From Lutjanus erythropterus (taxonomy: Eukaryota > Chordata > Actinopteri > Lutjaniformes > Lutjanidae), in assembly GCA_020091685.1 (NCBI GenBank), contig CM034603.1, positions 27,310,298 to 27,374,297 of the forward strand: 64,000 nucleotides of DNA. The letters run 5' to 3'. The first letter of the stretch is position 1. Each line of letters starts with the position of its first letter. A program made the position numbers and the translations under genes. Under the pieces are notes generated by a model. The model ran no database searches, was not told where the DNA came from, and worked only from the letters and a program-made list of their open reading frames with translations. This document shows positions 28,942 through 49,900 of the stretch, piece by piece.

Positions 28942-31900
28942 TTCAACAGCTGGGCTCTGAGGTAATCACAGTTTTAGGTGTGTGTGGGTGTTTGTGCTGT
29001 GTACCTGTGCTCATGATGTCTTTAATAAGGGTTAAAGATTGTTTCTTACCAGGCACTTCCCTGTCGTCTGGTCACACTCGTCAGCCAGACCATTGCACTC
29101 GCAGGGCACACAGCGGCCCAGGAAGAGTCCACTGTTATCTCTGTAGAATCCAGGAGCACATTTCTGAAAAAGAAAAAAAAGATTACCTTAAATTATTGCT
29201 GGAAAGAATAAGTCAATATATCCAGATACATCACTGTTTAAATACATATGAATTCAAAAGCAATGTTATTTTCATTGAAAAACTGTGGTTAATATTGTCA
29301 AATATTTGCTGTTTCCTCTTTATTAAATGTGAGGATTTGCTGCTTTTCTTCGTCATTTCTGATAGTGAATGAAGAGTTTTTGGACAAAATAAGCAATTTG
29401 AAGACATCTCTTTGGGCTCTGAGAAATTATGATGAGCATTTTTCACATTTCTTTGACATTTTATAGATATTATAGACATTTGCACACATTAAATATCCAG
29501 ACAAGCATGTCTGTTTTAAGGTTGCTCATCACAATGGTGTAAAAACCCTGTAAAGTGGTAAAAAGCAGTCCTGCTCATCGATTTGCCTGTAACCAAAATT
29601 ACTGACAGTATAAACTAGAGGCGCACAAGTGACATTATCATCTGTATCTGTTCAACAACAAAAAAAAATCTTTCTTTGTATCTGTATTTGGATAGCAGAC
29701 CGGAGGTAGGTGTGGTTTGTAGTGGATGTTACCTTAAATTGGGCAAATGTTGTAGTTTCTAGAATATTATAAAAATATATTAATATTATAATACATTATA
29801 GTAGTATAAACATAAATAAATCTCCCATAAATCTCATATTTTCTGTCCTCTTAGACTATATATTATCATATTGCCTAACCTTCAATGATAGCATGTACAA
29901 ATGTATTACATAATGCCAGTTACCACTGCACTTTAGTAGACTTTAGGCAAACTTAATAACTGTGAACACAGAGTCAGTTTTATTTTGTCTAAACACAGCA
30001 GTGTTTCCAGAGATTTTGCCACCATTCATAGAGGATGATTAAAAGCTTTTCTCTCAGACAGACATCTCTGCTTGTCATGAAGTGTGAGAATTCACAGAAC
30101 ACACAGCAGGGCCCTTGACCTGAACTGACCATTCATCATTAACGATTCACGCAGAAGAGCCGAAATACGCCCCTTTGATTTCGGAGATAACAGTCTTCAA
30201 GTCACCGACAATCCACACCTGAGATGCTGAGAAGGTAAAACCTCAACATCCCTTCAACAAGAAGATCTTGACAGACATTTACCTTAATCTGAGCACTGGC
30301 GCCGTCATTAACAGAAGGAAAGAGAACTCTCTGTCCTCCGTCATGTACCGAGGGGTAGCGTACCACTTGGGTACCCTCATCATTCACCGATGGATACACT
30401 ATCCTTTGAGTTCCTTGGTCATTAGGTGAAGGGAACTGGATCCTCTGACTCCATCTGTCATGATGCCGGGCGTAGCGGGATCTGCCTCCTCTCTCGAAGG
30501 GCCGGGGGCCAGCGCAACAAAGTCCAATCAAAGTCCAACATAGCAGGGTCTGTAACAAAACCCCTCTCCGCTGTAGTCTATCCATGTATGTATGTGACAT
30601 TCCTAACGTTTAGTCTGTGTGAAGTAATGCTCCACTCTGCCTGCATCGGCCTCTTAAACACACACGCTCGCGCTCACGCAGAGGACACGCCCCGTCATTC
30701 ACCTGAGTCAGTCCTGCACATCAGCATGAGTGTCTGCAGGCGCACAAGCACACACATGCAAGTCTTTACCTGCTCTGTCACTCACCTTTTCACTCACACA
30801 CACACACACATTATTACAGTATTGTATTTTTTATTTTTTTTGTTCAGAGTAGTTGTCAGCTATTAACTTATTAATTGATCATTTATAATTTTTAAATAGA
30901 TCAGTCATTTTCTAAGAAAAAAAAGGCCTAATTGTCTTATTTCAGCATTTCAAATAAGAATATTTTCTAGTTTCTTTGTAACAGTAAACTGAATTTCTTG
31001 GGGACAAATCGACACATTTAAAGATGTCATCTTGGGCTTTAGGAAACACTGATCAACATTTTTCACCATTTTTGACATTTTATGAACCAAACAACTAATC
31101 GATTGATCAAGAAAATGACTGACAGGTTTATCAATAAAACATTTTTGTTTTTAATTTTTGTTTTCAACCAAGTGTCAGTTAATTTCCAGAGTGCGTTTAT
31201 TCGTTTCAGTTTAAAATGTTTTGTTTTAGTTTAGTTTTTATTAGTTTTATTTGTTTGTTGAATAAAGTTAACTTAAACTCAAAATAAGAAAAAAAGAGAA
31301 AAAAATGAAAATGAGAAAAAAATGTGTGTTCTGAATCTGATTAACTACTAATTATTAAATGTTTAATCAATTGATAGTATTTTTCAAAATGCTAAAATTC
31401 TGTAAAACTAATATGAACCAGTGCCTCCTAATGTTTGTTGTGTTTTACAAATTTGATCAAATTGGCAAAGATTAAAACTAAAGAGGTTTCTTCTATATTT
31501 TCTATTTTACTTCGGTTATGTTTGTAAGCGCACAATATTGTTTTGGGTGGTGTTTTATTTCAGCTAACTAAAATGTTTTTTTCACACCTAGTTTTAGTAT
31601 TTAGATTAGTTTTAGGTAACAATAATAACCTTAGAAAGAATTGATACATAATATAGAAATATGTATTTAATAATGATATATTTCATTGTATATAAAGTCG
31701 CAGGACTTTTAATTGATATACCATGTTGTTTAATGTTTTAATGTTATCTTCTGTGTTGTGCAATGTATGGCGATAATTATGGGTTTTAAATGTTTTACCT
31801 GGACAAATAGTTTATTGCTGTTTATAAGTGATGTTTTTATGTCCAGGACTCTCAAAAGCCCAGTTGGGCTGAAAGAGATCCTAATAAAAAATCTAATCAA

Positions 31901-46900: not shown

Positions 46901-49900
46901 CTTTTGTGTGTGTTTTCTAGTGATTTTATTTTTTGTCATACAAAATATAAAAATGAAACAAACTATTTTAAGATTTTGCTCATCCCTTTGTGACCATGAA
47001 AAAGAAAAATGTCTTGTATTTATTTATTTATTTTTTTTTACTTTTATTTTTACCATCATCATTTCTAGATCTTTGCCTTCCTCTTAAACTCACCAGCAAA
47101 ACTCCCTCTGCCTTTATGTGAATGATCCATTTCCCAGGGGTCAATGCAAAGGGCTCAGCGAAGCCCTCTCCTGGGACAGTGAGGAAGGACGGGGAGGGAC
47201 TCTCAGGGAATATTACTTCCTTACGCTTATCCGACCCTGCTGAGCAACAAAGCAGAAACGTCTGTGATGTTACACACTCATAGCTGAGAGCACAGAAAAC
47301 AAACGAAGAGCGGGACATCGTCAGTATACAGTAAGACACACCAGCTTAAATCAAATAATGGAAATGGGTTATTTATTTAATGTATTCAATGATAGGTTAG
47401 ATTTGATGATATGATATGAAATGTCAGAGGCAGCCTTACCTGCAGTGCCTCTGTTATTGGTAGCCTTGATGCTACCTGTCACACTGCTGCCGCTCGGGTT
47501 AGTGAACCGCAGAACCACACGGAATAAGTGCTGCCTCCCATCTTTTGGGTCAACATGCACTGTTACTCTGACCTCACTCTGCAGGGACAAGAGTGACACA
47601 CAGCTGACTGCAATGGCACGGGTTTGAGTAGACGATGAGGGTATAAAGTTCGGTTAAAAATCATGCCGGGCGGGCAGAAGACTTGAGCAAACGGAGCGGA
47701 TTAATCAACAGACAGCAAGCAAAGGTGAGGAGAGGAAAACAGAGTCAAAGGAAGAAAGCAGGCCCTTCACTTACAATCACAGCAAGACTTAACGCCAGCT
47801 TCGTCCACCACCAAGATCCTTGCTCTCACTCGTGCTCGCCCCTTTTGTCGGGGGGTGGAGTAGCGCATTACAATATGGAAAGGGCCAGGAAAGCCAAGGC
47901 TAAGTGTTAGGATCACCTCCGGCTGAAGAAAGATAGCATTAGTTCTAAAAGAGCGCCACATTAGCTTGTAGTCGTGTGCTTGAAGCAGGATTATCAGTGC
48001 AGAGATAAAAGCGAAACAATCATGGTGGCATCAGAATAGACTGAAAAAGGAAGTGGTTGAAGAAGCAGTGGCCCCAAAAATAGACTCTTCCCAGCCATAC
48101 TGTGATTTATTAGAATAACTGCATAAGATAAGAAATACCTTTATTGATCCCAAAAGTAGCAGTGTGGGGAAATGTAGCAAATAATCAAATAAAAGTAAAA
48201 TAAAACTAGAATTCAAAATAAATGAGATAAACACAAAAATAAAAAATACTACATACAACTATATCTAGGAGTGTGCAATGTCCATTTACACGAGTAATGT
48301 GCAAATCCTTAAATCACACAGACCGTGTCTATGGATGTGCAATATGTTGGTGAAATGCTGACTGTTAATTTCATAAATACTAACCTGTGCAGGAGACATT
48401 ACAGCATAACCTCTCCAGCTGAAATCTGGGAACTCTTGAGCGTCGTAACCAAAGCGCACTGGTCTGGAATTTGGAGTGGTGCCATCCTCAATCTCGAACT
48501 TCAGTTGGTGGAGAGTTGGAAAGAAGTAGCTGGGTGCTGGCCTAAAAAGGTTCACGAACATTACAATAAAAACTCTGTAGGTTAGTCGTTGATTTAGAGA
48601 ACTTAGCGAAAACTATTTCATATAAAATTGTGTCTGAATCCCAAGGCATGGCGACAGTCCATATCTTACTCAGTGCATTTACGGCCGACGACATTCTTCC
48701 GACACTGACACTGTCCAGACATCTCATCGCACGCCATGCCAACAGCACCACCTACATCACACCCACAACCTATCAGAGAGAGTAAAAGTCATTAAGTTTG
48801 ATTAAAGACTGAAGCAGGGTTTCACTGTCCTCTCTAGTTTAGTTTAGTTTAGATTGGATCAGGGGTTTTCAAAGTCTGAGACTTTTGAAGCCTCCCCTCA
48901 GACAAAGCTTGGCCAAAAAAAAAAAAAGTCTACTTGCTTATTTTGCTCATTTCCTGGATATCTATGTGATCATTACTGTTATAACCTAATATTGTTGTAT
49001 AACATAGTTTCAGACCACAACAATCAGATAAAGGTCTGTCCAAAGGCATTTATTAGTTTCGACTATTCTCAAAACGGGAAAAATATTAAAATTCCCCAGA
49101 ACAACTGTATCTCTGAACTATCTCCTTGATCTAAAAACTAATGTCATATTTTTTCCCCTTCCATTCACTGAGCCTCCCCTGAAACTGTGGGATGTTTTAT
49201 ACATGTTTTATGCTTGGAAGATGAAGATTCTTAGGGTGTCTATTTGGGTAGTTATGGAATTGTGAATTATTAACATTATTTACAAGGTATGGTTGAAAAT
49301 TTTAAGTGTGTTGCATCCATAATCATTCCCACCAGTGATGTCACAGTGTACTGACCACACCCTGAATACAATTGTATTGAAATGAGAGGGCAAAAAGCTG
49401 GAGGTGAGCAAAAACAAGATTATCAGGTAAACCTGATTTACACCTTCTGTAGACTCTTAAGTATTCATTAAAGCATGCTGTGTTTTTCTATAGAATAAAT
49501 TATAGTCTCCTCATATTATTATACACAATAATAACATAACACAGTACACAGCATGTATAAGACATGACGTTACACCTACAGTCAGACAGATATATCAGTC
49601 AGCTGATAATGGTCATAATGCAGATTGTTTTTATCTTTTAATACTATAGGCAACATTTTATGTATATTTGATCCTTTTTTTTAAATTAAAGTTAAGCATA
49701 TAATTGTATATATTTTATCATGTGATTGCTTGCATCTGTGCATGTGTGTGCGTGACCAGCAGCCCTGAAGCTTGTCTGCAGCTAATCTTGCATAGACCTG
49801 AACCCATCAGTCTAATTTTTTGTGCACATTCCTGACTGTACGCTGAAAGGCCTCTTAAGATTGACAGTTTTTCAAAAACTTGAAAAGCCGTCATTCATGC

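Follow-up and report, generated by a model that had tools for sequence, protein, structure and literature searches.

A putative pair of mutually exclusive exons in domain IVB of fish lama3, with a matching pair in lama5

Between exons 15 and 17 of the laminin alpha-3 gene (lama3) of the fish Lutjanus erythropterus lie two neighbouring exons, 16a and 16b. Are they alternatives, of which each transcript takes one, or does only one of them do the work, and when did the pair arise? We analysed the locus in a window of 64,000 nucleotides, the whole stretch of DNA under study, and compared it with the rest of the same genome. On the sequence evidence set out below, we consider it probable that 16a and 16b are tandem-duplicated, mutually exclusive exons, and that they represent an ancient pair kept in both lama3 and lama5 of this fish.

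The exon pair of lama3

The gene lies on the minus strand of the window. Its joined exon translations contain EGF_laminin, Laminin_B and Laminin_G_2, in this order and above the Pfam cut-offs; Laminin_II on a short piece scored below its cut-off (17.1 bits versus 33). Downstream lies an exon pair of the TTC39 family (PF10300, 27.5 bits versus a cut-off of 22.2), presumably TTC39C, which adjoins LAMA3 in human. Because of the laminin domains together with this neighbour, we identify the gene as lama3.

Exon 15 (48541-48385, minus strand as for all lama3 exons below; 157 nt, phase 2 to 0) starts domain IVB and ends with GYAVMSPAQ. Then come 16a (47922-47775; 148 nt, phase 0 to 1), which bears cysteines and ends with SCCD, an intervening intron of 196 nt (47774-47579), the cysteine-free 16b (47578-47440; 139 nt, phase 0 to 1) and exon 17 (47239-47094; 146 nt, phase 1 to 0). 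Read directly from the sequence, the coordinates, lengths and phases given to these four exons by the initial annotation were right, and the pattern it had noticed, EVxxT...FxxVxR(Y/F)xxP, is present in both 16a and 16b. All four exons are flanked by AG and GT, as expected of GT-AG introns. In the long alpha-3 chain, domain IVB has three beta-rich modules. In the mechanism that we propose, 16a and 16b would each encode the N-terminal half of module 1, and exon 17, the C-terminal part of this module, would together with the following exon (46346-46243, the end of module 1) make up the remainder common to both isoforms. The start of exon 17 (47239-47234) contains a tandem acceptor, cag/CAG/GGT, which may make one residue optional.

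Laminin alpha-3 has two forms, 3A and 3B, that differ by start site. At 30584-30283 (minus strand) we noted an ATG, a hydrophobic signal-like stretch, four copies of approximately FPSxNDxGxQ and a donor, gtaaat; this is likely where the short (3A) form has its alternative first exon. As this candidate exon lies downstream of domain IVB, the domain should be present in the long form only, and a swap of 16a and 16b would leave the short form unaffected. In our gene model the furin-like cutting motif RRRRQ occurs in three lama3 exons (45121-44965, 42857-42659 and 22393-22199, minus strand), two of which precede modules 2 and 3.

Both paths through the pair, 15-16a-17 and 15-16b-17, are open, as had been claimed, and skipping of both exons results in a frameshift. 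The junction of 16a and 16b with the normal sites reads CCD followed by two stops, TAG (the immediate stop proposed initially) and then TGA. Since both exons run from phase 0 to phase 1, a transcript spliced at the normal sites would have to contain exactly one of them. The claim that the reading frame by itself enforces exclusivity thus holds for the normal sites; it does not hold, however, for an upstream acceptor at 47607, which permits 16a to be joined in frame to a longer 16b (47607-47440). This possible extended exon was the choice of a crude gene finder, and the open joint frame makes it conceivable that some transcripts contain both exons, as a constitutive or cassette tandem that would give a module with two N-terminal halves. 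The acceptor at 47607, however, scores only 4.0, compared with 10.9 for the normal acceptor of 16b and with a 5th percentile of 4.3 among the curated acceptors, and the residues it would add are a polypyrimidine tract read as protein. In our gene model, moreover, modules 2 and 3 have one N-terminal half each.

The two consecutive stops could also mean that 16a is a poison exon, whose inclusion beside 16b would lead to mRNA decay and to less of the long alpha-3 chain. A poison exon, however, requires neither an open frame, nor a laminin-like sequence, nor a matching phase, and 16a has all three; this explanation would also leave the coding pair of lama5 (see below) unexplained, and we consider it extremely improbable.

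We scored the splice sites with a generic weight matrix, taking 61 curated lama3 exons as the reference. The initial annotation described the sites of both exons as strong. This description fits 16b, with an acceptor of 10.9 and a donor of 12.1 (66th and 90th percentiles), but the sites of 16a are modest, at 7.6 and 5.7 (34th and 25th percentiles); those of exon 15 scored 5.0 and 8.5. The per-codon coding scores of 16a and 16b were almost the same, 0.288 and 0.285, with 11 of the 61 curated exons scoring no higher in either case. When the 806-nt intron was shuffled 3000 times with its dinucleotides preserved, no shuffle contained an exon with the phase and scores of 16a under strict thresholds, which we chose afterwards to lie just under those of 16a itself, and 6 shuffles contained one under loose thresholds. 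We also scanned the unmasked remainder of the window (55,059 bases per strand) for chance exons of this kind. On the minus strand there were two other open candidates of phase 0 to 1, the better of which had a coding score of 4.4 versus 14.7 for 16a; on the plus strand one candidate exceeded 16a (18.0; 30425-30585), and it is mostly antisense to the likely real first exon.

Direct comparison of 16a with 16b reveals a weak similarity (12 of 42 residues identical, ~29%; z about 3). Domain IVB contains three related modules, and in each of them the exon of the N-terminal half starts in phase 0, with a phase-0 junction preceding a part resembling DYLVLLP. Module 2 (44631-43925; exons 44631-44468, 44220-44112 and 44022-43925) has an N-terminal half related to 16a, and so does module 3 (42516-40501; exons 42516-42390, 42124-41976 and 40616-40501), whose N-terminal half is also related, more weakly, to 16b. 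In local alignments 16a reached z 6.0 and 5.0 against modules 2 and 3, respectively (0 of 500 shuffles), and z 3.1 against 16b. A profile built from the N-terminal halves of modules 2 and 3 ranked 16a top among the non-training six-frame open reading frames (E 0.058, 2857 searched); 16b was absent among the matches listed. Addition of 16b to the profile brought 16a to E 0.009. Because this profile ranks 16a first, and because 16a is close to modules 2 and 3, we conclude from these comparisons that 16a is genuinely half of a laminin module. The links that join 16a and 16b into one family run through modules 2 and 3 and the exons of lama5, and their products are homologous.

The three tandem modules of domain IVB (48541-40501, minus strand) resemble sugar-binding beta-sandwiches of the CBM35 type. 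A whole-module profile (module 1 with 16b, module 2 and module 3, without 16a) matched a module of exo-beta-D-glucosaminidase, 2vzp, a CBM35, at E 0.0028; when 16a replaced 16b, the match was at E 0.039. Searches of solved structures with module 1 alone or module 3 alone returned nothing relevant, and Pfam offered no fitting model for module 1 or for modules 2 and 3. Scans of bacterial genome contigs and viral contigs with exon 15 found no stray vertebrate copies. A translated search of the introns for other duplicated exons gave no matches, but it likewise missed the known 16a.

A matching pair in lama5 and the age of the duplication

The initial annotation proposed that an ancestral alpha-3/5 gene had both exons, a reading that predicts a pair in lama5 as well. 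We searched the 937.6-Mb assembly of this genome (444 contigs, the window being part of contig C13) with exon 15, and found it in two places, lama3 and C10:35565949-35566104, 67% identical. On the same contig, C10, an exon of RPS21 lies ~102 kb from this locus; RPS21 is a neighbour of human LAMA5, which supports the assignment of the C10 locus to lama5.

The predicted pair is there, on the minus strand, and it matches that of lama3 in order, phases, place and cysteine type. Exon 15' has the length and phases of lama3 exon 15, 157 nt and 2 to 0. Exon 16a' (C10:35565204-35565066; 139 nt, 0 to 1; acceptor 8.2, donor 6.3) ends with YYCGN/C and is translated as SKVLVSVSVSSPDLFHVVLRYANWVGSDILGRVSVIEDGWNYYCGN plus a split C. 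Exon 16b' (C10:35563931-35563802; 130 nt, 0 to 1; acceptor 9.8, donor 10.0) is translated as TAVKLQVYVNEADVYLTRFILRYINTEGATSNGKITAYQGNRK plus a split G. Exon 17' (C10, 143 nt, phase 1 to 0) was found independently with lama3 exon 17, to which it is 48% identical, and the pair sits between 15' and 17' with the order and phases seen in lama3. In both genes the 16a-type exon is upstream, with cysteines near its end and a T/gtaagt donor, and the 16b-type exon is downstream, cysteine-free and with a stronger G/gta donor. The coding scores of all four exons are positive. The intervening intron measures 1134 nt in lama5 (C10:35565065-35563932) versus 196 nt in lama3; the pair was kept and the spacing changed.

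As in lama3, neither joining 16a' to 16b' nor skipping both keeps the frame; each shifts it and leads to a stop. A cryptic acceptor 7 nt inside 16b' (score 5.4) would allow joint inclusion in frame, and in this respect lama5 is comparable to lama3 with its acceptor at 47607. However, lama5 would have to use a different site, located downstream rather than upstream of the normal one, both cryptic acceptors are weaker than the normal ones, and the product would carry two N-terminal halves for one C-terminal half. Joint inclusion of the two exons in some transcripts is, in our judgement, highly unlikely.

The matching pair is present in both genes of one genome. Since a single fish has it in both, the pair would predate the split of lama3 and lama5, and we infer a single origin. 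A rival reading is that the exons are real alternatives but that each gene acquired its pair by a tandem duplication of its own after the split. We compared the exons by protein search and by phylogeny. In phmmer searches (3272 open reading frames from both loci), the best non-self match of 16a was 16a' (E 0.024), and that of 16b was 16b' (E 0.011), followed by 16a' (0.015). In the other direction 16b' found 16b first (E 0.033), making these two reciprocal best hits, and 16a' found 16b (E 0.016) slightly ahead of 16a (0.036). By alignment, 16b scored z 9.8-12.4 with 16a' and z 8.9 with 16b'.

Trees were computed from eight exon sequences of this genome (~55 columns). The unconstrained tree grouped 16b with 16b' (88%) and placed 16a' beside them (93%), with lama3 16a outside. 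In an AU test that included this best tree, both separate duplications by gene (p 0.018) and a crossed grouping (p 0.018) were rejected, and forcing 16a together with 16a' was not (p 0.095), at a cost of 5.7 log units. An earlier set of topologies lacking the best tree gave p 0.093 by gene, 0.094 crossed and 0.909 by type. In a tree of both exons with alpha-3 and alpha-5 exons, as had been suggested initially, 16b thus joins its lama5 counterpart, and 16a stands outside and not beside 16a'. Since 16b groups with 16b' and duplications by gene are rejected, the 16b type most likely arose by a duplication older than the split of lama3 and lama5. The place, phase, cysteines and donor of 16a and 16a' suggest that they are likely the same exon by descent, which the tree does not show; 16a may simply have changed fastest.

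The test lacking the best tree, and the failure of 16a to group with 16a', would fit separate duplications in the two genes. Against them stand the AU test with the best tree, the correspondence of order, phases, cysteine placement and donor type between the genes, and the reciprocal best hits of 16b and 16b'; the same grouping by gene was also rejected, at p 0.043, once provisional human sequences were added (see below). We consider two independent duplications quite unlikely. A recent duplication producing 16a and 16b was rejected as well, at p 0.036 in a set with the provisional human pieces and without lama5 (5000 resamplings, too few according to the program), and it is also countered by the rejection of grouping by gene in both genes.

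The pieces of human LAMA3 and LAMA5 used here are provisional, and results obtained with them are a lead, not a test. The provisional human alpha-3 piece aligned with 16b (z 13-15), and human LAMA3 is not known to have any but the 16b type; the provisional human alpha-5 piece aligned with lama5 16a' (z 17-21). A tree including these pieces had one group of 16b, 16b' and human alpha-3 (85%) and another of 16a' and human alpha-5 (80%), again with 16a outside (87%). In the corresponding AU test, grouping by type (p 0.418) was not rejected, nor was a topology in which both human chains joined the 16a types (0.405); placement of both with the 16b types was rejected (0.042). The proposal that 16b resembles alpha-3 and 16a resembles alpha-5 agrees with the provisional pieces for 16b and for lama5 16a'; lama3 16a stays outside in the best tree. 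Likewise, the suggestion that each mammalian paralogue kept one of the exons fits the provisional pieces, although the best trees leave lama3 16a out; as a lead only, mammalian LAMA3 may have kept the 16b-type exon and LAMA5 the 16a-type exon.

The outside position of 16a relative to the other three module-1 exons could also be a sign that it is a dying relic, still with an open frame yet unused in lama3, where 16b would do the work. The weaker splice sites of 16a would be consistent with this, as would human LAMA3, which is not known to have a 16a type, and the outcome of searching the genome with the 16a protein, where 16a itself was the only find (one candidate scored). However, the frame, the phase, both splice sites and the module pattern of 16a are intact despite its low identity to 16b, and its coding score equals that of 16b, features that an unselected exon of such age would be expected to lose. 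We regard decay of 16a as unlikely, and prefer the reading in which both exons are maintained as alternatives.

Choice between the exons and its possible consequences

Because the splice sites of 16b-type exons are better than those of 16a-type exons in both genes, 16b is probably the default and 16a a regulated choice that needs help. We looked at how such a choice might be made. Steric exclusion requires less than 50 bases between donor and branch point, according to PMC5740500, and the intervening introns of lama3 (196 nt) and lama5 (1134 nt) are too long for simple exclusion of this kind. Pairing of the docking-site/selector type, analysed in three pairs of lama3 introns, was not stronger than in shuffled sequences, as 92, 68 and 51 of 100 shuffles paired as strongly or more. 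In lama3, positions +11 to +70 of the intervening intron are 78% C+T, the second highest value of 66 donor flanks, and contain one GCATG; the matching stretch of the lama5 intron is 62% C+T and has no GCATG, i.e. the lama3 features are unmatched there.

If the choice is made, the swap would add or remove a cysteine pair near a site where modules 2 and 3 also carry cysteines. It would also alter strands and loops of one module half, so that the alpha-3 short arm would come in two versions. Concerning evolution, we lean, with modest confidence, towards a scenario where the ancestral laminin gene chose its version of module 1 by splicing, this fish keeps the choice in both genes, giving four long chains, and the mammalian genes lost opposite exons.

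If both exons are used, fish would make alternative laminin short arms, which we have not found described in the papers searched, and splicing would control one variable of basement membranes in skin, gut and vessels. The pair would also be a clear case of sister genes that inherited an exon choice, with each fixing one side of it in another lineage. If this is true, part of what distinguishes human alpha-3 from alpha-5 would go back to a choice of splicing in their ancestor, which each gene then fixed by losing the opposite exon.

Comparison with known systems

The word 'laminin' did not occur in the main text of the papers on exclusive exons that we searched (including PMC5740500, PMC4465641, PMC3228551 and PMC7954323), nor did 'LAMA' in those other than PMC3228551. 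The passages of a rockfish laminin paper do not contain 'alternative', and no description of alternative domain IVB exons was found in the open-licence literature. Exclusive exons of this kind are already known; in the literature searched we found neither a pair in a laminin gene nor its occurrence in both paralogues.

The laminin exons share features of known exclusive exons: they are adjoining homologues of similar length and equal phase, with GT-AG introns, and either of them would supply the same half of a domain. One criterion in use, given in a passage of PMC3228551, is a length difference of at most 20 amino acids; lama3 16a and 16b (148 versus 139 nt) are 3 codons apart, and in both genes the pair combines similar length, compatible GT-AG sites and equal phase 0 to 1. 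In 377 human clusters (60%), lengths not divisible by three make joint inclusion non-functional, according to PMC5740500, and the lama3 and lama5 pairs share such lengths with these clusters. Validated lists of exclusive exons need transcript support, whereas the putative laminin pair was recognised from DNA sequence. In this fish it is present in both sister genes, which encode proteins of the basement membrane, and neither human paralogue is known to have more than one type.

More than one protein is already made from the laminin alpha-3 gene, as 3A and 3B and as LaNt alpha-31, an alternative form described in PMC9328196, and the proposed isoforms would add to these. However, 3A/3B and LaNt alpha-31 use another promoter or truncation, whereas 16a and 16b would swap a half-module of domain IVB in the long form only.

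In tropomyosins, alpha-actinins and dynamins, exclusive exon pairs that predate the duplication of the gene are known (PMC4465641), and the laminin pair would likewise be an exclusive pair in sister genes that split early in vertebrates. Unlike those cases, in which human sister genes share the event, the human laminin paralogues presumably have one exon each, and the fish would represent the older state.
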